Assembly: GCF_001305595.1 (NCBI RefSeq)
Contig: NZ_CP012405.1
Location: 452,501-516,500, forward strand
Length of the DNA: 64,000 bases
Source: Azospirillum thiophilum
GTDB taxonomy: Bacteria > Pseudomonadota > Alphaproteobacteria > Azospirillales > Azospirillaceae
Reading direction: 5' to 3'
Part shown: positions 32,482 to 42,480 of the stretch, piece by piece
Position numbering within the stretch: the stretch's first letter is position 1
How the letters are laid out: every line of letters starts with the position of its first letter
Notes under the pieces: generated by a model
Told to the model about the DNA's origin: nothing
What the model saw: the letters and a program-made list of their open reading frames with translations, nothing else
Databases searched by the model: none
Position numbers and translations under genes: made by a program

Positions 32482-33345
32482 TCAAATCCAGCGCTTGCGC
32501 CGCTTGAAGCTCTTCAGGTTCTTGAAGCTCTTGCGCTCTTCGCTGCCGCCGCCGAGGTAGAATTCCTTCACGTCCTCGTTGTTGCGCAGCTCTTCGGCGG
32601 TGCCGTCCAGCACGACCTTGCCGTTCTCCATGATGTAGCCGCGGGTCGCGGCCTGCAGGGCCATGCGGGCGTTCTGTTCGACCAGCAGGATGGTGACGCC
32701 CAGATCGCGGTTGATCTGCTGGACGATGCTGAACACTTCCTTCACCATCAGCGGCGACAGGCCCATGCTCGGCTCGTCCATCAGGATCAGCTTCGGCCTC
32801 GCCATCATCGCTCGGCCGATCGCCAGCATCTGCTGTTCGCCGCCCGACAGGTAGCCGGCCAGCCCGGTGCGCTCCTTCAGGCGGGGGAAATAGCTGTAGA
32901 CCATGTCCAGGTCGTCCTTCACCCCGTTGTCACGACGGGTGTAGGCGCCGAGCCGCAGGTTCTCCAGGCAGGTCATGTCGGCGATGATCCGCCGGCCCTC
33001 CATCACCTGGAAGATGCCCTTGCGGACGATCTTGTCGGGGTCGATGCCGTTGATGCGCTCGCCGTTGAAGGTGATGTCGCCGCGCGTCACCTCGCCGTCC
33101 TCGGTCTTCAGGAGGCCGGAGATCGCCTTCAGCGTCGTCGACTTGCCGGCGCCGTTGGCACCCAGGAGTGCGACGATCTCGCCCTCCGGCACTTCCAGGC
33201 TGAGGCCGCGGAGCACGAGGATCACGTCGTTGTAGACGACCTCGATGTTGTTGACGGACAGCATCATCCGCTTGGCGGCCGTGACGGGCGGCATTCCGGC
33301 CTGGGCGGGGGCGTTGGTCGGAGCGGCCGGGGCGGTGTTCAGCAT
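32482..33345 (-). CDS. livF: LIV-type ABC transporter ATP-binding protein (LivF-like)
   Basis: 287 residues. ABC ATPase with Walker A GANGAGKST, signature YLSGGEQQMLAIGRAM, Walker B LILMDEPSMGLS and a switch His region altered to VEQNARMAL, as in LivF proteins. The C-terminus carries a basic tail (KSFKNLKSFKRRKRWI) seen in LivF homologues next to aromatic-acid CoA ligases. The start is ATG 33345; an internal ATG pair near residue 27 is an alternative because the first 26 residues are low-complexity Ala/Pro. It energises uptake together with LivG, LivH, LivM and the binding protein encoded in the same operon. Confidence 0.93.
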   Translation of the reverse strand: MLNTAPAAPTNAPAQAGMPPVTAAKRMMLSVNNIEVVYNDVILVLRGLSLEVPEGEIVALLGANGAGKSTTLKAISGLLKTEDGEVTRGDITFNGERINGIDPDKIVRKGIFQVMEGRRIIADMTCLENLRLGAYTRRDNGVKDDLDMVYSYFPRLKERTGLAGYLSGGEQQMLAIGRAMMARPKLILMDEPSMGLSPLMVKEVFSIVQQINRDLGVTILLVEQNARMALQAATRGYIMENGKVVLDGTAEELRNNEDVKEFYLGGGSEERKSFKNLKSFKRRKRWI

Positions 33346-33419: not shown

Positions 33420-34712
33420 TTACCAGCCCAGCCATTCCGGCTTGCGCGGGACGTCGACGGTGGTCAGCTTCTCCAGCTTGATGGTGCCGGCCTTGACCAG
33501 CTCGTCCACCCCGGCGCCGGTGTCGCCGCCCACCTTGGCGCGGTAGATGTTGACCGCCGTCATGCCGCGGTGGTCGGTATCGGTCCAGGTCGAGGGCACG
33601 CAGACGCCCTCCAGCCCGGCCGGAACCCAATCCTTCTTCTGGTACATCGCCTTGCGGATGTTCGGACCGGTGACGCCGCCGTTCTTGGCCGCCCAGTCCA
33701 TCGCCTCCTTCATGTAGTAGGCGGTGCAGACGCCGGCCATGTAGTGCACCGGGCGATAGGCCTTGCCCGACGTGTCGGAGATCTTCGAGATCTCCTTCAG
33801 CAGGGCCATGCCCGGCACCTCGGCGTTCCAGGTCACCGAGGTGCGCATCGGGAACACGACACCATCGGCAGCGGAACCCGCTGCCTTGGCGGCATTCTCG
33901 TCCATGCCCCAGACATTGCCCATGAACTGCACCTTGGCGCCGACCGTCTGGCAGGCCTTCAGCACCGAGATGTTGGAGCCGGCGGTGTTGCCGAGATAGG
34001 CGTAGTTGACGCCGGACTGCTTCAGCGTCAGGCACTGGGCGGTGTAGTCGCCGGGGGTCAGCGCGAACTGCACGGCCGGCAGCACGTCGAAGCCCAGCTC
34101 CTTGGCCAGTTGCTCGCCGGCATCCTTGGGCGCATTGGGATAGGGGTGGTTGGCGCCCATATGGACGTATTTCGGCTTGCCCTGGCCGCCCTGCTTCTTC
34201 CAGTCCTCCGCCGCCCAGGTCAGCATGCCGCGCAGCGCATCGGAATAGGAGGGGCCGTAGAAGAAGTTGTAGGGCGCCGGCTTGGAGCCGTGCGGGCCCT
34301 TGCCGGTCGGGTCGGTCAGGTGGCCGGAATAGGAGCCGGAATAGGCCGGGATCTCGTCCTTGGTCACGAAGCCGGTCAGCGCCTCGGTGTCGGCGGTGCC
34401 CCAGCCCTGGAGCGCGGCGATCTTGTCGCTGCCCGACGACCATTTCTTGTACTGGCTGATGGCACGCGGCGCCTGGTAGCCGTAATCGACGCTGTCGACC
34501 GCAAGCTTGGTGCCGCCGACGCCGCCCTTGGAGTTGATGTAGGCGAGCGCGTCCGACACGCCCTGCGCATAGGGCACGCCGACGTCCGAGGTGGCGCCGG
34601 ACTGGTCCGCCAGATGGCCGACCGGGATGTCGGCAAGTGCGGTGGCGGAGGTCGCCAGCAGGAGGGCGCCGGTAATGGCCGAGGTGGCGAAGAGCGCGGT
34701 CTTGATCGACAT
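33420..34712 (-). CDS. LIV-type ABC transporter periplasmic substrate-binding protein
   Basis: 430 residues from ATG 34712 (GGGAGT upstream). The signal peptide MSIKTALFATSAITGALLLATSATALA is followed by IPVGHLADQSGATSDVGVPYAQGVSDALAYINSKGG, the start of a type I periplasmic-binding fold. It captures the transported ligand. The sequence belongs to the larger (about 430 residues) group of Leu/Ile/Val-type binding proteins that accompany aromatic or acyl-acid CoA ligases, rather than the amino-acid-specific LivK group (inference). It lies between livM and livF in the operon. Confidence 0.92.
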   Translation of the reverse strand: MSIKTALFATSAITGALLLATSATALADIPVGHLADQSGATSDVGVPYAQGVSDALAYINSKGGVGGTKLAVDSVDYGYQAPRAISQYKKWSSGSDKIAALQGWGTADTEALTGFVTKDEIPAYSGSYSGHLTDPTGKGPHGSKPAPYNFFYGPSYSDALRGMLTWAAEDWKKQGGQGKPKYVHMGANHPYPNAPKDAGEQLAKELGFDVLPAVQFALTPGDYTAQCLTLKQSGVNYAYLGNTAGSNISVLKACQTVGAKVQFMGNVWGMDENAAKAAGSAADGVVFPMRTSVTWNAEVPGMALLKEISKISDTSGKAYRPVHYMAGVCTAYYMKEAMDWAAKNGGVTGPNIRKAMYQKKDWVPAGLEGVCVPSTWTDTDHRGMTAVNIYRAKVGGDTGAGVDELVKAGTIKLEKLTTVDVPRKPEWLGW

Positions 34713-34766
34713 GGTGCGTTTACTCCCTGGTCTGTTCTGTTCGTTGACCGGCAAAAACGACCGGAC

Positions 34767-35840
34767 TTAGTGCGAGAAGGGATAGAGCTTCCAGTAGGCC
34801 TTGATCTGCTTCCAGCGGTGGGCCAGCCCGTCGGGCTCGAACACCAGGAACAGGATGATGACGAGGCCGATCGACATCTCGCGCAGGAAGGCGATGTTGT
34901 CCTTCAGGTTCAGCGCGGTGTCGATGGCGGTGCCGCTGACCATCTTGGTCAGCGCCTGCATCAGCTCGGGCAGGAACACCATGAAGGCGGTGCCCATCAG
35001 CGTGCCCATGATCGAACCCAGCCCGCCGATGATGATCATGCCGAGGAACTGGATCGAGAACAGGATGGTGAAGCCCTCGACCGACACGAATTGCAGGTAG
35101 TGGGCGTAGAGCGCGCCGCCGATGCCGGCATAGAAGGCGGAGATGCCGAAGGACATCGTCCGGTACTTCGTCAGGTTGATGCCCATGATCTCGGCGGAGA
35201 GATAATGGTCGCGCACCGCCACCAGGGCGCGGCCGTCGCGGGTCCGCATCAGGTTGGTGGCCAGGATGTACATCACCACCATCGCCACCAGCACGACGTA
35301 GAAGAAGCGCTCGTCGGTGTCGAAGGCGAAGCCGAACAGGGTCAGCGGCTCGGCGATGGTGCCGGCGGTGCCGCCGGTGAACCAGTCGGCCCGTGCGAAG
35401 AAATCCTGCAGAATATACTGCGCCGCCAGCGTGGCGATGGCGAGGTAGAGGCCCTTCAGCCGCGCCGCCGGCATGCCGAACAGCAGGCCGACGCCGGTGG
35501 TGATGACGCCGGCCAGCGGGATCGCCAGCGCCACCGGCACACCCCAGCTGTTGTTCAGCCAGGCCGACGCGAAGGCGCCGAAGCCGAAGAAGGCGGAATG
35601 GCCGATGGAGATCTGGCCGGTGAAGCCGACCAGGATGTTGAGCCCCAGCGCCGCGATGCCGAGATAGCCGATCTGGATCAGCAGGCTGAGCCAGTAGCGG
35701 TCCATGAAGGCCGGGCAGGCCAGCAGCAGGACCACGCCGAGGATCGCGAAGTTGCGGCTGGTCTTCGTCGGGAAGATGGTGGTGTCGGTCCCGTAGGACG
35801 TCTTGAAATCGCCGCTCGGGATGATGCTGACATTCGCCAT
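34767..35840 (-). CDS. livM: LIV-type ABC transporter permease (LivM-like)
   Basis: 357 residues with about nine to ten hydrophobic segments. The family motif LGLNILVGFTGQISIGHSAFFGFGAFASAW is at about residues 60-95, and the conserved cytoplasmic coupling region (RTRDGRALVAVRDHYLSAEIMGINLTKYR) follows. It forms the inner-membrane channel with LivH. It starts seven bases downstream of the livH stop, which implies translational coupling. Confidence 0.94.
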   Translation of the reverse strand: MANVSIIPSGDFKTSYGTDTTIFPTKTSRNFAILGVVLLLACPAFMDRYWLSLLIQIGYLGIAALGLNILVGFTGQISIGHSAFFGFGAFASAWLNNSWGVPVALAIPLAGVITTGVGLLFGMPAARLKGLYLAIATLAAQYILQDFFARADWFTGGTAGTIAEPLTLFGFAFDTDERFFYVVLVAMVVMYILATNLMRTRDGRALVAVRDHYLSAEIMGINLTKYRTMSFGISAFYAGIGGALYAHYLQFVSVEGFTILFSIQFLGMIIIGGLGSIMGTLMGTAFMVFLPELMQALTKMVSGTAIDTALNLKDNIAFLREMSIGLVIILFLVFEPDGLAHRWKQIKAYWKLYPFSH

Positions 35841-35847
35841 TTTGGCC

Positions 35848-36735
35848 TCACACGCGCTCGATGTCTTTGGTGCCGAACAGGCCGTAAGGCTTGATCATCA
35901 GGATGGCGATCAGGACGTAGAAGGGCGCGATCTCGTACATGTTGCCCCAGTTCAGCCACTGGCTGTCCAGATAGTGCGCCATGTTCTCCAGCACGCCGAC
36001 GATCAGGCCGCCGACCACCGCGCCGATGATGCTGTCGAGACCGCCCAGGATCACCGCCGGGAACACCTTGATGCCGAAGAAGGACAGGGCCGACGACACG
36101 CCGTTGACCACGCCCACCGTGACGCCGGCCACCGCCGAAACCATGGCGGAGATCGCCCAACTCATCGCGAACATGTGGCGGACCGAGATGCCCAGCGACT
36201 GCGCCACCTGCTGGTCGAAGGCGGTGGCCCGCATGGCGAGACCGGTGCGCGAATATTTGAAGAACCAGCCGAAGCCCGCCATGATCAGGATCGAGATCAG
36301 CAAGGACATGACGTAGACGGTCTGCACCTCCAGCCCGAACAGGTTGGTGGTCGGGCTGGCGAAGATCTGCGGGAAGGGCTTGGCGAAGACGCCGAACATC
36401 CACTTCATCGCCGCCTGGAAGACGATCGACAGGCCGATGGTCACCATGATGACCGAGATGATCGGTTCGCCGATCATCGGCCGCAGCACGATGATCTGCA
36501 GGATGACGCCGAAGGCCAGCATGAAGACCAGCGTGATCGGGAAGCCGATCCAGAAGGGCAGCTGCCAGCTGGTCAGCAGCCACCAGCAGGTCCAGGCGCC
36601 GATCAGCAGGAATTCGCCCTGCGCGAAGTTGACGATGCGGCTGGCCTTGTAGATCAGCACGAAGGACATGGCGACCACGCCGTACAGCGCGCCGACGATC
36701 AGTCCGTTGACGAGAAGCTGGAACAGAAGGGTCAT
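35848..36735 (-). CDS. livH: LIV-type ABC transporter permease (LivH-like)
   Basis: 295 residues with seven to eight hydrophobic segments. The N-terminus (LLVNGLIVGALYGVVAMSFVLIYKASRIVNFAQGEFLLIGA) is the LivH hallmark. The loop RTGLAMRATAFDQQVAQSLGI is the ATPase-coupling EAA-like region, and GGLDSIIGAVVGGLIVGVLENMA follows. It pairs with LivM. A 268-bp gap to the acyl-CoA synthetase gene upstream contains a palindromic element, so livH may have reduced read-through or its own promoter. Confidence 0.94.
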   Translation of the reverse strand: MTLLFQLLVNGLIVGALYGVVAMSFVLIYKASRIVNFAQGEFLLIGAWTCWWLLTSWQLPFWIGFPITLVFMLAFGVILQIIVLRPMIGEPIISVIMVTIGLSIVFQAAMKWMFGVFAKPFPQIFASPTTNLFGLEVQTVYVMSLLISILIMAGFGWFFKYSRTGLAMRATAFDQQVAQSLGISVRHMFAMSWAISAMVSAVAGVTVGVVNGVSSALSFFGIKVFPAVILGGLDSIIGAVVGGLIVGVLENMAHYLDSQWLNWGNMYEIAPFYVLIAILMIKPYGLFGTKDIERV

Positions 36736-37003: not shown

Positions 37004-38971
37004 TTAAGCCGCCACCGGCTGCGGCTTCTTCGCCGCGGCAGGCACGAGGTCGATGACGGTCAGCGTGGTGCGGATGCGCTGCTTGGTGCCGTCCTGGAAG
37101 GCGATCGTCGTGTCGACGTCGATCCTCGGCTGGCCGGCATAGATGCTGTCGATGATGGTGCCATACTTCTCGGCGACCACGCCGCGCCGCACCTTGCGGG
37201 TGCGGGTCAGCTCGCCGTCATCGGCGTCCAGCTCCTTGTAGAGCAGCAGGAACTTGGAGATGCGCTGATATTCGGGAAGCGTCTGGTTGACCCGCTCCAC
37301 CTCGCTGCGCAGCAGCTCGTACACCTCCGGCCTCGACGCCAGATCGGAATATGTGGTGAAGGCGATGCGGTTCTTTTCCGCCCATTTCGACACGATGGAG
37401 AAGCGGATGCAGACGATCGCCGACAGGTAGTCGCGCTTGTCGCCCAGGATCACCGCCTCGGCGACATAGGGGCTGAATTTCAGCTTGTTCTCGATGAACT
37501 GCGGGCTGAAGCGGTCGCCGCGGGCGGTGGTGGCGATGTCCTTGATGCGATCGATGATGACCAGATGCCCCTTCTTGTCGAAGAAGCCGGCATCGCCGGT
37601 GTGCATCCAGCCGTCCCGCATGTCGGCGACGGTCGCGCTCTCGTTGCGGTAATAGCCGGCGAACATGTTGGGATGGCGGGTGACGATCTCGCCGACGCCA
37701 TTGTGGTCGGGGTCGATCACCTTCACCTCGATGCCGCCGTCGAACGGCACGCCGACGGTGTCGAAATCCACGTCGGTACCGCGATGGACGGTGTAGGCAC
37801 CCATCGTCTCGGTCTGGCCGTAGATCTGGCGCAGCGGCACGCCCAGCGCCTGGAAGAACTTGAAGGTGTCGGGGCCGAGCGCGGCACCGCCGGTCGCCGC
37901 CGATTTCAGGTTGGTGAAGCCCAGCCGGTCGCGCAGCGCGGTGAACAGGATCCTGTCGGCCAGCGCCGACCGCTGCCCCTTGGCCAGCGCCTCCAGCCCG
38001 AGCTTCATGCCGAGATCGTACATCTTCTGCTTGAAGGGCGAGGCGTCCATCATCCGGGCGCGCACGTCGGCGGCGATGGCCTCCCACAGGCGCGGCGCGA
38101 ACAGGACGAAGCTCGGCCCGATCTCGCGGAAGTCGTGCATCATCGTCTCGGCTTCCTCGACGAAGTTCACGCGCATCCGCGACACCATGCTCATGCCGAC
38201 CGCATAGACCTGCTCCATGATCCAGGACAGCGGCAGGACCGAGACATACTCGTCCTCCGGCCCCTTGGGATCGGCCGACAGGTAGCTGGCGACATGGCGG
38301 ATCAGCCGCCCGGCCGGCAGCATCGCCATCTTCGGGTTGGAGGTGGTGCCCGACGTGGTGCAGAGGATGGCGACCTCCTCGCCCTTCGTCTCCGCAACCA
38401 TGCGGTCGTAGAGGTCCGGCTGCCGGGCATGCAGCTCCTCGCCCATGCGGATCAGGTCGGTGACCGGCATCAGGCGCGGGTCATGGTATTTGCGCATGCC
38501 GCGCGGGTCGGAATAGATGATGTGCTGCAACGTCGGCAGCCGGTCGGCGAGGTTCAGCAGCTTGTCGACCTGCTCCTCGTCCTCGGCGAACACCACCTTC
38601 ACGTCGGCATAGGTGATGAGGTAGGCGACCTCCTCGTCCAGCGCGTCGCGGTAGATGCCCAGGCTGTAGCCGCGCACCGCATGGGTCGCGATCTCGCCCA
38701 TCACCCAGTCGGGGCGGTTGTCGCCCAGCAGCCCGACCACCTCGCCCGGCACGACGCCGATCTTGGTCATGCCGAGCGCGAAGCCGCGGACCCGGGCCTG
38801 CACATCGGCCCAGGTGAAGCTGCGCCAGATGCCGAAATCCTTCTCGCGCATGGCGATGTCGCCGCCATGGTCGCGGGCGTGCAATGCCACCAGCTTCGGC
38901 AGCGTGTCGTGGACGGAGAGATCGGGCAAGCCGGAGGGGGAAGCGGTGGGGGAAACGGTGTTTGCGGCCAT
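37004..38971 (-). CDS. Long-chain-type acyl-CoA synthetase (AMP-forming)
   Basis: 655 residues from ATG 38971, which overlaps the livG stop (TGATG) and has AAGGAGG upstream. AMP-binding motifs are CTTSGTTSNPKMAM (P-loop), YGQTETMGAYTVH, GWMHTGDAGFFDKKGHLVIIDRIKDIATTARGDRFSPQFIE and the C-terminal domain with LTRTRKVRRG. It resembles FadD15/long-chain acyl-CoA ligases often encoded inside LIV transporter operons. It probably traps the imported acid as CoA thioester. It lies between livG and livH in a single-strand operon opposite the IclR-type fusion regulator. Confidence 0.92.
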   Translation of the reverse strand: MAANTVSPTASPSGLPDLSVHDTLPKLVALHARDHGGDIAMREKDFGIWRSFTWADVQARVRGFALGMTKIGVVPGEVVGLLGDNRPDWVMGEIATHAVRGYSLGIYRDALDEEVAYLITYADVKVVFAEDEEQVDKLLNLADRLPTLQHIIYSDPRGMRKYHDPRLMPVTDLIRMGEELHARQPDLYDRMVAETKGEEVAILCTTSGTTSNPKMAMLPAGRLIRHVASYLSADPKGPEDEYVSVLPLSWIMEQVYAVGMSMVSRMRVNFVEEAETMMHDFREIGPSFVLFAPRLWEAIAADVRARMMDASPFKQKMYDLGMKLGLEALAKGQRSALADRILFTALRDRLGFTNLKSAATGGAALGPDTFKFFQALGVPLRQIYGQTETMGAYTVHRGTDVDFDTVGVPFDGGIEVKVIDPDHNGVGEIVTRHPNMFAGYYRNESATVADMRDGWMHTGDAGFFDKKGHLVIIDRIKDIATTARGDRFSPQFIENKLKFSPYVAEAVILGDKRDYLSAIVCIRFSIVSKWAEKNRIAFTTYSDLASRPEVYELLRSEVERVNQTLPEYQRISKFLLLYKELDADDGELTRTRKVRRGVVAEKYGTIIDSIYAGQPRIDVDTTIAFQDGTKQRIRTTLTVIDLVPAAAKKPQPVAA

Positions 38972-39867
38972 CACGCGACCTCCTTGCGGGGGGGCTGCTG
39001 GTGGGCGGCGGCGGGCGCCTCCTCGTCGTCGTCCTCGCCCAGATAGGCGCGGCGGACGCGGGGGTCGGCCAGAACCTCCTCCGGCCTGCCTTCGGCGATC
39101 TTCTTGCCGAATTCCAGCACCATCACCCGGTGCGAGATGTCCATGACCACGCCCATGTCATGCTCGATCATGACGACGGTCATGCCGAACTCCTCGTTCA
39201 GGTCGACGATGTAGCGGGCCATGTCCTCCTTCTCTTCCAGGTTCATGCCGGCCATCGGCTCGTCCAGCAGGATCAGGTCCGGCTTCAGCGCGATGGCGCG
39301 GGCCAGCTCCACCCGCTTGCGCAGGCCATAGGACAGGGTGCCGGCGGTGGCCTTGCGGACATGCTGGATTTCGAGGAAGTCGATGATCTCCTCCACCTCG
39401 CGGCGGTGGGACAGCTCCTCCTTGCGGGCGCCGGTCAGCCAATAGAGCGGGCCGGTCAGGAAATTGTTCTTCAGCAGGTGGTGGCGACCGACCATGATGT
39501 TGTCGAGCACGGTCATGTGCCCGAACAGCGCCAGATTCTGGAAGGTGCGGCCGATGCCGAGCGAGGCGCGATGGTTCGGGGTCATCCCCGTCACGTCGCG
39601 TCCCTTGAAATAGACCTTGCCATCGGTCGGCCGGTAGCGGCCGGAGATGCAGTTGACCATCGAGGTCTTGCCGGCCCCGTTCGGGCCGATGATCGAGAAC
39701 AACTCGCCCTTGCGGATGCCGAAACTGACGTCGGTCAGCGCATGGACGCCCCCGAAGCGCAGATTGACGCCCCGAGCCTCGAAGATGGTCTCCGCCTGGG
39801 TAGTCGCCTGGGTGGCGGGCGAATTTTGGGCAGGGCCGGGGTGTGGTGCGACGGGCGCGCCTGACAT
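38971..39867 (-). CDS. livG: LIV-type ABC transporter ATP-binding protein (LivG-like), first gene of operon
   Basis: 298 residues. Walker A GPNGAGKTS, signature LSYGLRKRVELARAIAL, Walker B LILLDEPMAGMN and switch His (MIEHDMGVVMD) are all present, with the LivG-specific long helical insert. The first 25 residues are low complexity (Pro/Ala/Thr). It is the promoter-proximal gene. A 17-bp palindrome lies 66 bp upstream of the start codon, matching one at the divergent regulator gene. Its stop overlaps the acyl-CoA synthetase start. Confidence 0.94.
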   Translation of the reverse strand: MSGAPVAPHPGPAQNSPATQATTQAETIFEARGVNLRFGGVHALTDVSFGIRKGELFSIIGPNGAGKTSMVNCISGRYRPTDGKVYFKGRDVTGMTPNHRASLGIGRTFQNLALFGHMTVLDNIMVGRHHLLKNNFLTGPLYWLTGARKEELSHRREVEEIIDFLEIQHVRKATAGTLSYGLRKRVELARAIALKPDLILLDEPMAGMNLEEKEDMARYIVDLNEEFGMTVVMIEHDMGVVMDISHRVMVLEFGKKIAEGRPEEVLADPRVRRAYLGEDDDEEAPAAAHQQPPRKEVA

Positions 39868-39932: not shown

Positions 39933-39949
39933 GGTCCATATTGTGGACC
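39933..39949. promoter_or_regulatory. Operator-like palindrome 1, livG side
   Basis: GGTCCA-TATTG-TGGACC, perfect six-base arms with a five-base spacer, centred about 74 bp before the livG start codon. Its arms and spacing are identical to the second site at 40049. The two sites are 116 bp apart (start to start), close to eleven helical turns, which would suit cooperative or looped binding. It is the likely site of the divergently encoded IclR-type fusion protein (inference). Confidence 0.7.
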
Positions 39950-40048
39950 GTTTCATGAGCAACTTCCTCACTATATACCGGGCTCCGGTCTGTTTTCAAC
40001 ACTGACATTCCGCCACTGCATGTTTTTTCCCGCGACAACCCGGCGCAT

Positions 40049-40065
40049 GGTCCATATGATGGACC
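40049..40065. promoter_or_regulatory. Operator-like palindrome 2, adjoining the fusion regulator start codon
   Basis: GGTCCA-TATGA-TGGACC, with the same arms as the site at 39933. It ends one base before the ATG at 40067. No Shine-Dalgarno sequence fits in front of that ATG, so the transcript may be leaderless or start within this site. Protein bound here would block transcription or initiation of its own gene, the expected pattern for autoregulation. Confidence 0.7.
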
Positions 40066-40066
40066 C

Positions 40067-41833
40067 ATGACCCGCCATGCCGACATCGCCCCCGCTCCGG
40101 CCGCCCCGAACGCCGCGGGCGGCACCCAAAGCCTGGAACGCGCCATCGCCCTGCTGCGCGCGGTCGCCGCCGCCGGGACCGGCGGCGCCCGGCTGGCCGA
40201 CCTGATGACCGGCGTCGGCCTGTCGAAGGCGACGGCGCACCGGCTGCTGACGGCGCTGGCGCGCGACGGGCTGGTGGACCAGGATGCCCGCAGCAGGCGC
40301 TATCACCTGGGGCCGGATCTGGTGGCACTGGGCGATCTGGCGGCCTTGCGGCACCGCCCTGCCCCCCCTCCCCCGCTCCGCCCGCCGGAAGCGGCAATTC
40401 CGGAACCGGCGAATGCGGAACCACCGCTTGCCGAGTCGATCCCGCCGGAGCCGGCCCTTCCGGTGCCGCTGGTCCGCGCCTCCGCCTTCCTGCGGCCGGA
40501 ATATCGCGGCGACGCCATCGCGCTGGCGACGCTGCTGTGCGACCGCCATGTCCGCGCCGCCGACGGCGCGCGGGCGGCGCTGCTGCATGAAAGCGTGGCG
40601 GGACAGACGACGGAGCTGAGCTTCGCCCGGCTGGCCCGCGATTCGGCGCGCTTCGCCAGCGTGCTTGCCGGGATGGGGGTGGGACAGGGCGACCGGGTGG
40701 CGGTGCTGCTGCCCAAGGGATCGGAGCTGCTGATCACCGCGCTGGCGATCTGGCGGCTGGGCGGGATCTACATGCCGCTGTTCACCACCTACACCACGTC
40801 GGCGGTCGCCTACCGGCTGGCCGACAGCGACGCGCGGGCCATCGTCACCAACGGCTTCCTGCGCCGCAAGGTGCCGCGCGACAACAGCCGCCCGGTGGTG
40901 ACGGTCGAGGGCGACGAGGCGTTCGGCCCCGACGCCGTGCCCTTCTGGTCGTCACTGCACGAGGCGGCGCCGCGGGCGGAGGTGGCACGCTACCGGGAAA
41001 GCGATGCCTTCGCCCTGATCTACACCTCGGAATCGGAACCGACGCCGCTCGGCGTCCCGCTGCCGGTCAAGGCGCTGTCGGGAATCGAACAGTACATGCG
41101 CATCGGCCTCGACCTGCGCGACGACGACATCTATTGGAACATGGCCGATCCCGGCTGGGCCTATGGCGCCTATTACGGGCTGGTCGGGCCGCTGCTGCTG
41201 GGGCGGACGACGATCTTCTGCGACGGCCCCTACGACGTGCGGCAGGGCTACCGGATGCTGACCAAGTTCGGCGTCACCAACCTGACGGCGGCACCGTCGC
41301 AGATCCGCGCCTGGCACGGCGCCGATCCCGGCGTGTCGCACCAACTCGCCCTGCGCATCCTGTCGGTGGTGGGCGAGCCGCTGCCGCCCGACCTGATCGC
41401 CTGGGCCAACCGGACGGTGAAGGTGCCGCTGCTCGACCAGTATGGCCAGCGCGAGACCGGCATCTTCATCGTCAACCGCTACGACCCCGAAGGGATCGGC
41501 CGTTACGATGCGGACGGGACGGAAGGGGGCGACGCCGCCCAGCCGCCCAGCGGCTCGCTCGGCCGGCCGATGCCGGGCTTCCGCGTCGTCGTCCTCGACC
41601 CCGACGGGCGGGAGGCGCCGGTGGGCGGGGTCGGCGAGATCGCCATCGACGTCGACCACTCGCCGCTGTTCTGGTTCGAATCCTACGCCAACGACCCGGA
41701 GCGGACCGCCCGGCGCTTCCGCCACGGCCGGCGCTATTACCTGACCGGCGACTGGGCCTTCCTGGACACCGACGGCAACATCCACTATCGCGGCCGGGCG
41801 TCGGACGCGATCCAGATGCAGCAGGGCGAATAG
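40067..41833 (+). CDS. IclR-type HTH fused to a catalytically defective acyl-CoA synthetase domain
   Basis: 588 residues. Residues about 19-95 are an IclR winged HTH (GGTQSLERAIALLRAVAAAG, then LSKATAHRLLTALARDGLVDQ and YHLGPDLVALG). A Pro-rich linker (about 97-140) follows. From about 150 to the end is an AMP-dependent acyl-CoA synthetase fold (LSFARLARDSARFASVLAGMGVGQGDRVAVLLPKG, WNMADPGWAYGAYYGLVGPLLLG, YLTGDWAFLDTDGNIHYRGRASD). The ATP loop reads YTSESEPTPLGVP instead of YTSGTTGxPKG, losing both Gly and the Lys. YGQTE is YGQRE. The protein stops at the hinge, so the C-terminal lid with its catalytic Lys is absent. Reading frame and GC3 are continuous, so a frameshift is unlikely. It is divergent from the transporter/CoA-ligase operon with paired palindromes between. 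Inferred role: acyl-CoA- or acid-responsive regulator. Confidence 0.85.
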   Translation: MTRHADIAPAPAAPNAAGGTQSLERAIALLRAVAAAGTGGARLADLMTGVGLSKATAHRLLTALARDGLVDQDARSRRYHLGPDLVALGDLAALRHRPAPPPPLRPPEAAIPEPANAEPPLAESIPPEPALPVPLVRASAFLRPEYRGDAIALATLLCDRHVRAADGARAALLHESVAGQTTELSFARLARDSARFASVLAGMGVGQGDRVAVLLPKGSELLITALAIWRLGGIYMPLFTTYTTSAVAYRLADSDARAIVTNGFLRRKVPRDNSRPVVTVEGDEAFGPDAVPFWSSLHEAAPRAEVARYRESDAFALIYTSESEPTPLGVPLPVKALSGIEQYMRIGLDLRDDDIYWNMADPGWAYGAYYGLVGPLLLGRTTIFCDGPYDVRQGYRMLTKFGVTNLTAAPSQIRAWHGADPGVSHQLALRILSVVGEPLPPDLIAWANRTVKVPLLDQYGQRETGIFIVNRYDPEGIGRYDADGTEGGDAAQPPSGSLGRPMPGFRVVVLDPDGREAPVGGVGEIAIDVDHSPLFWFESYANDPERTARRFRHGRRYYLTGDWAFLDTDGNIHYRGRASDAIQMQQGE

Positions 41834-41910: not shown

Positions 41911-42480
41911 ATGGAAGCCAAAACGAAGAACCGCGAGTCCTGGCTGGCCGCCGCCTTCGCGGCGCTGGCCGAAGGCGGCGTCGACAAGGTGCGGGTGGAA
42001 CTGCTGGCCAAGACCCTGAAAGTCACCAAGGGCAGCTTCTACTGGCATTTCCGCGACCGCACCGACCTGATGGGCGCGCTGCTGGAGAGCTGGAAGCTGG
42101 GCCGCATCGCCGCGATCAAGGAACAGACCCGGCTGGACGGGCGCGAGCCTGCGCGGCAGTTGCGCGACATGCTGGCGCTCTATGGCGGCAGCAAGCCGCG
42201 CGGCATGGCGATCGAGCTGGCGGTGCGCGACTGGGCGCGGCGCGACCCCGACGCCGAGCGCATCATCGCCGAGGTCGACCGCGAGCGCCTGCACAGCGTC
42301 GCCGGCCTGTTCGCGGCGCTCGGCCTGCCGGCCGACCAGGCCTTCGCCCGCGCCTACCTGTTCTATGCCTTCGCCTTCGGCCAGGGCCTGCTCGCCCCCG
42401 CCGCGGCCGCCGACCGGGCCGAGTTGGTGCGCGCGATCTGCGCCGACGTGCTGGTGCCGGAGGCGCGGGCGGCGGAATAG
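41911..42480 (+). CDS. TetR/AcrR family transcriptional regulator
   Basis: 189 residues. The N-terminal HTH (LAAAFAALAEGGVDKVRVELLAKTLKVTKGSFYWHFRDRTDLMGALLESW) is a textbook TetR domain. The C-terminal helical domain (MAIELAVRDWARRDPDAERIIAEVDRERL) resembles TetR regulators linked to fatty-acid or acyl-CoA metabolism. It lies 77 bp downstream of the fusion regulator on the same strand and may be its operon partner. Its effector is unknown. Confidence 0.92.
   Translation: MEAKTKNRESWLAAAFAALAEGGVDKVRVELLAKTLKVTKGSFYWHFRDRTDLMGALLESWKLGRIAAIKEQTRLDGREPARQLRDMLALYGGSKPRGMAIELAVRDWARRDPDAERIIAEVDRERLHSVAGLFAALGLPADQAFARAYLFYAFAFGQGLLAPAAAADRAELVRAICADVLVPEARAAE

Follow-up and report, generated by a model that had tools for sequence, protein, structure and literature searches.

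A gene of Azospirillum thiophilum, a member of a genus of root bacteria, encodes an IclR-type winged helix-turn-helix (HTH) joined to the core of an acyl-CoA synthetase that has lost its catalytic parts. The gene lies within the 64,000-nt stretch of DNA analysed here (the window), divergent from an operon for a LIV-type transporter and an acyl-CoA ligase. Its product most likely works like an enzyme-derived one-component repressor, and the adjacent genes for organic-acid uptake and activation are most likely under its control. The preferred reading, to which a probability of about 0.62 is given, is that of an autoregulated repressor whose dead synthetase would sense an organic acid or its CoA thioester. 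What was read from sequence covers the architecture, the loss of motifs and of the lid, conservation, the operators and their spacing, and synteny. The original prediction, made by a model from the letters of the window, is right in its essentials, as this is a real and unusual regulator.

HTH_IclR and AMP-binding were the regulator domains above the cut-off. Fold and profile matches agreed on the N-terminal winged helix (PF09339). The C-terminal IclR effector-binding domain, PF01614, was missing among families at E values of up to 1, and its place was occupied by PF00501, with the N-terminal core fold of ANL acyl-CoA synthetases present. The canonical ATP loop TSG[T/S][T/S]GxxKG was absent, its counterpart having the degenerate form listed in Table 1, and a family scan of the 588 residues found no C-terminal lid with the catalytic Lys (PF13193, A10). 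Judged by these features, the protein falls short of full membership in the IclR family, as it carries no effector domain, and with a degenerate ATP loop and no lid it should not be a working synthetase. The predicted IclR-type HTH on a disabled synthetase was therefore borne out. When the whole regulator was modeled, no IclR chain appeared among the best 50 matches (VIA listing) because the large synthetase core fills the listing. The HTH was therefore folded alone, and it matched IclR-family structures, in line with the IclR-like HTH originally proposed.

A frameshift or local truncation, which had been named as a possible refutation, was looked for and rejected, since the architecture recurs in several genera and the lid-less homologues terminate at about the same place. 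Azospirillum sp. B506, a draft genome, has a regulator ORF broken near the ATP loop (L013:10001-10933), which may be a sequencing error or a real loss. A TetR-like gene (named by eye; 41911-42480, + strand) starts 78 bases after the regulator in close relatives, lies about 6.5 kb from it in the A. brasilense group, and is possibly cotranscribed with the regulator in the window.

Table 1. Regulator, predicted control sites and divergent operon, in positions of the window
Feature	Position	Strand	Basis or remark
Regulator gene, 588 aa: IclR-type winged HTH and lid-less, catalytically decommissioned acyl-CoA synthetase core	40067..41833	+	
HTH_IclR domain (aa 22-73)	40130..40285	+	Pfam E 1e-11; IclR-family structures matched by profile and by fold
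Acyl-CoA synthetase N-terminal core (about aa 146-578)	40502..41800	+	
Degenerate ATP loop YTSESEPTPLG (aa 319-329)	41021..41053	+	
Degenerate A5 motif YGQRE (aa 459-463; Thr to Arg)	41441..41455	+	
Predicted operator O2, GGTCCATATGATGGACC	40049..40065	.	Holds predicted regulator -10; ends 1 nt before ATG
Predicted regulator promoter GCGACA-17-TATGAT, -10 inside O2	40032..40060	+	Consensus match only
Predicted operon promoter TTGAAA-18-TATAGT, between O1 and O2	39970..39999	-	Consensus match
Predicted operator O1, GGTCCATATTGTGGACC	39933..39949	.	About +15 to +31 of predicted operon transcript (operon start assumed 7 bases after -10); 116 bp from O2
LivG-type ABC ATPase, first gene of divergent operon	38971..39867	-	PF00005, PF12399
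Acyl-CoA ligase, 656 aa, intact motifs TSGTTSNPK and YGQTE	37004..38974	-	PF00501, PF23562
LivH-type permease	35848..36735	-	ORF and synteny; name by order and sequence
LivM-type permease	34767..35840	-	ORF and synteny; name by order and sequence
Periplasmic substrate-binding protein	33420..34754	-	PF13458
LivF-type ABC ATPase (287 aa)	32482..33345	-	ORF and synteny; name by order and sequence
PaaK-like protein (482 aa), degenerate ATP loop	31017..32465	-	PF00501, PF14535

In 36 of 39 lid-less loci, all seven operon genes (LivG, 656-aa ligase, LivH, LivM, binding protein, LivF and PaaK-like) were present and divergent from the regulator, which confirms the predicted arrangement; contig ends cut the other 3. 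The further expectation that a transporter/CoA-ligase operon would always lie beside the fusion holds for the lid-less clade but not for its lid-bearing sisters. At the four distinct lid-bearing loci read (L045, L046, L047 and L159), the LIV/ligase operon is absent, and a tannase/feruloyl esterase gene (PF07519 in three loci; 95% identity in L159) lies divergent from the regulator. The upstream sequence of L045 is as in L090. Two CoA ligases had also been ascribed to the operon; the 656-aa ligase has intact motifs, but the PaaK-like protein is without its ATP loop. In all 18 loci read, whether or not they carry the fusion, the PaaK-like protein has SPGPI or SPGGI for SSGTTGNPT but retains a C-terminal Lys (GK or AK), and by its sequence it may be a second nonadenylating synthetase. 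Two ANL-fold proteins of one operon region, the regulator and the PaaK-like protein, have each lost the ATP loop.

Fusions were found in Azospirillum, Arenibaculum, Xanthobacter and Aquabacter; their lid-bearing sisters occur in Bradyrhizobium and Rhodospirillales. At least 3 of 385 genomes drawn from the class carried the fusion (matches beginning before model position 20), as did 3 of 265 Bradyrhizobium genomes, 1 of 39 in the family of G277, and 43 of 82 in the order (42/45 in the window's genus and 1/37 outside it). The 80 loci retained from 182 when named genomes were scanned include the fusions L008-L048 and L050. The 656-aa ligase was present in 43 of 43 fusion-carrying genomes of the order, in 10 more genomes of the order without the fusion (three from the window's genus), and in all 45 genomes of the window's genus searched. 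The fusion is not essential to the operon, as three genomes of the genus keep the operon without it. Ten fusion-less operon copies were found, and in 8/8 copies read no GGTCCA-type palindrome occurred within about 850 bases upstream of LivG. In L146 and L148, both from the window's genus and without the fusion, 3-hydroxyisobutyrate dehydrogenase-like and acyl-CoA dehydrogenase-like genes and a GntR-like regulator stand upstream of LivG where the fusion gene would otherwise lie (names by eye); these neighbors give a hint that the alternative class of substrates could belong to branched-chain acyl metabolism.

Motif decay was followed in 184 proteins from two protein searches (the best 120 of 415 and the best 120 of 1970 matches), the second of which was started from the least damaged fusion form known with the aim of finding a fusion with an intact enzyme. 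An N-terminal extension was present in 82 proteins, taken as fusions; from the 102 without it, 4 (P0021, P0022, P0071 and P0133) were set aside as fusion fragments or short starts. Among these listed matches, the canonical ATP loop was found in 93/98 free relatives and in 0/82 fusions. The fusions listed kept the ATP-loop Lys in 18 cases, contrary to the claim that it is always lost, and also kept a Lys at A10 in 19, the Thr of YGQTE in 1 and the Glu in all 82. No fusion with an intact enzyme was present among the 82, the nearest being P0126, which keeps the A5 Thr, a P-loop Lys and a Lys at A10. A lid (PF13193, A10) was found in 14 of 14 lid-bearing fusions scanned, so that its predicted absence from all such proteins is true of the lid-less clade but not of the sister fusions.

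Other parts of the nucleotide site have persisted. Among the matches listed, GEP, which we take to be the adenine motif, is kept in 51/82 fusions, and the Asp of TGD, presumably ribose binding, in 80/80 fusions reaching that far; both are mostly kept in the lid-less clade. On sequence grounds, this retention would count against a complete loss of nucleotide binding, and in the lid-less clade it fits an adenosine-containing ligand as well as acyl-CoA. The same residues, together with those retained by P0126, could suit a logic like that of BirA, the biotin protein ligase and repressor, with the fusion binding, or in its lid-bearing forms making, an acyl-adenylate as corepressor. This is considered unlikely, because the ATP loop is noncanonical in all 82 fusions listed and the lid is missing in the window's clade, which makes synthesis there very unlikely, and because free acyl-adenylate is, to our knowledge, not normally released. 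The boldest version, rated quite improbable, would make the kept adenine/ribose site a receptor for the acyl-adenylate or AMP of the live ligase, a BirA-like switch split over two proteins.

The lid-less synthetase core is under purifying selection and not drifting freely. Between the window and ten Azospirillum or Arenibaculum loci, dN/dS was 0.10-0.45 for the core versus 0.10-0.43 for the HTH; for two distant Xanthobacter-group loci, where synonymous change is high, it was 0.34 and 0.42 versus 0.37 and 0.65. Across 40 aligned proteins, 5 of them free enzymes, 60 columns were invariant. Both this invariance and the selection on the core speak against a constitutive autorepressor in which the synthetase body is a passenger that aids dimerisation only and senses nothing; an autorepressor geometry that requires no ligand and a core without catalytic parts would suit such a protein, which is nevertheless judged very unlikely. 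The selection applies to the core as a whole, pocket and surface taken together, and could also reflect a surface by which the dead core, no longer a reader of small molecules, pairs with a live operon ligase or enters mixed dimers, with DNA binding then set by the state of that enzyme. The co-occurrence of regulator and operon, with the 656-aa ligase in every fusion genome of the order, agrees with such contact. It is improbable all the same, given that the lid-bearing fusions read face a tannase gene where the operon is not present, and that the C-terminal domain of the 656-aa ligase is of a different type (PF23562).

Core trees were built without the main motif columns from 57 and 52 rows chosen from the listed matches and rooted on free enzymes. 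All fusions formed one clade (support 100/100 and 100/98 in the two trees), within which all lid-less forms formed one clade (100/100), with lid-bearing fusions as a sister group beside it (90/90 and 94/84). Independent lid loss in Azospirillum and Xanthobacter was rejected, as the trees group every lid-less form. The nearest intact protein, P0134, is a free protein with all motifs intact, without an HTH as predicted on a 2966-base contig, and was sister to the fusions (100/100, 52-row tree). One fusion event and one lid loss would be the simplest course, and the trees suggest a path from intact enzyme through fusion and loop decay to lid loss, in which we infer that loop loss preceded lid loss. 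The ATP loop may have decayed more than once, because fusions with and without the lid differ in its letters and some of those with a lid are nearly intact. It is somewhat better than an even chance that these proteins are an unnamed family of one-component regulators, in which an IclR HTH captured an acyl-CoA synthetase that lost the ATP loop and then, in one branch, the lid, and now senses its former substrate or product, with intact, half-dismantled and fully dismantled stages extant.

Two 17-bp palindromes, O1 and O2, lie between the regulator and the operon. For this pair, noted in the original prediction, exact GGTCCATATNNTGGACC was found in the 7.6-Mb genome at these two places only. 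Within the window, up to 2 mismatches gave 4 matches (2 places, both strands) versus 0.05 expected. A strict scan of 74 fusion loci, which include many near-copies, some duplicates and the window itself, found both sites in 65 and a single site in 8; the remaining locus, L022, is cut off and had none. On a looser reading, all 8 one-site loci had a second, weaker site, that of L037 being very weak. As a control, 4553 random windows from loci L008-L087 were scored more loosely, with both consensuses included and the palindrome score left out; at least one site occurred 133 times and two sites 4 times. Chance palindromes were rejected on the exact-match count, the window expectation and this control. 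With up to 3 mismatches, the genome gave 137 matches per strand versus 65 and 58 for the reversed control, and because of this roughly twofold excess there may be weaker targets elsewhere. The sole one-mismatch site elsewhere fitting both strands, C3:563662, sits within a coding frame and gave no evidence of a wider regulon; one or two mismatches also occur at four further loci (L003, L005, L006 and L007). The Xanthobacter group has the half-site GTCTCA versus GGTCCA elsewhere. In L118, from the window's genus, O2 is a hybrid, GGTCCATATTATGAGAC, that joins Azospirillum and Xanthobacter half-sites and is a possible intermediate in the operator change.

The O1-O2 distance was 104 to 106 bp in the Xanthobacter group and Bradyrhizobium, 115 to 118 bp in Azospirillum and Arenibaculum, and 138 bp in L045. 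At 10.5 bp per helical turn, these correspond to 9.9 to 10.1, 10.95 to 11.24 and 13.14 turns, respectively, which suggests binding of both operators on the same helix face, although the distances come from about five lineages and are not fully independent. The promoter scan found 2 promoters versus 0.1 expected, and the same gap holds two terminator-like sites on the + strand versus 0.3 expected. O2 is followed by an ATG within 0 to 5 bases in 16 of 17 aligned lid-less loci, the exception being L036. Because an ATG abutting O2 leaves no room for a ribosome site, the arrangement suggests a leaderless, autorepressed regulator mRNA if that ATG is the start; starts further down are possible, and Bradyrhizobium L046 has one after a ribosome-site-like stretch (by eye). 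The geometry is that of a repressor, with O2 spanning the predicted -10 right up to the start codon and O1 placed downstream of the point where operon transcription is predicted to begin. Some IclR-type regulators are activators, and binding at O1/O2 could instead be required for operon expression, which these repressor positions make quite unlikely.

On the preferred reading, IclR-type HTH dimers would occupy the two palindromes, at O2 covering the -10 of the regulator's own gene and shutting it off, and at O1 blocking the operon just downstream of its transcription start. Dimers at the two sites could cooperate on about the same helix face, probably through a loop enclosing both promoters. 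Without ATP-phosphate binding and lid, the synthetase body would form no acyl-adenylate, with the acid pocket kept as effector site; the old acid/acyl pocket is most likely the sensor. Once the pocket is filled by the imported organic acid or, more probably, by the CoA thioester that the intact 656-aa ligase forms from it, the protein would leave the DNA and the LIV transporter/ligase operon would be switched on. Repression, release by ligand, looping and ligand identity are what we infer from the features above. In the alignment, position 460 of the regulator is Gly (G460), where acetyl-CoA synthetase presumably has its pocket-closing Trp and enzymes for larger acids presumably have Gly. An aromatic or medium-size organic acid would suit both target types, the LIV transporter with a live ligase and the tannase/feruloyl esterase. 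Aryl-CoA thioesters are listed, in the part of PMC4424350 available, as inducers of PaaR, CouR, FerC, HcaR, FerR, GenR, PaaX, BzdR, BoxR and MbdR.

If this reading is true, the acyl-CoA synthetase fold joins the enzyme folds turned into gene-control sensors, and the stages of its conversion are preserved with unusual completeness, in an intact sister enzyme and in fusions with and without the lid. The regulator would also be a direct handle on a LIV-type uptake operon. Because the substrate range of the fold is very wide (fatty, aromatic and amino acids), it could be a natural scaffold on which to engineer biosensors. No account of an IclR-HTH/AMP-binding regulator was found in the literature searched, which lay outside most subscription journals.

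The regulator shares the N-terminal winged helix of the IclR family (TtgV, HmgR, PcaR and IclR) but is without PF01614 and about twice as long as most of the solved IclR-type chains listed. Compared with the ANL acyl-CoA synthetases (5u2a; benzoate and anthranilate CoA ligases), it has lost the ATP loop, the A5 Thr and, in the window's clade, the lid. BirA likewise joins an HTH to an adenylating enzyme, but that enzyme is active and of a different fold, whereas the regulator should not adenylate. Some putative benzoate ABC transporters are described as likely under adjacent IclR-type regulators in the accessible part of PMC6449761. That source also mentions one case, Reut_D6476, of an IclR HTH on an enzyme of CoA metabolism, in this chimera an enoyl-CoA hydratase, which is of another fold and predicted to be catalytic. 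BzdR and BoxR, which the original prediction had invoked, are repressors induced by benzoyl-CoA and, in the parts of PMC6449761 and PMC4424350 available, likewise combine an HTH with a sensor derived from an enzyme and lie next to aromatic-acid genes, in some cases with putative benzoate ABC transporters. The likeness is one of analogy and not homology, as both parts differ, BzdR/BoxR pairing an XRE HTH with a shikimate-kinase-like sensor and the regulator HTH_IclR with AMP-binding.
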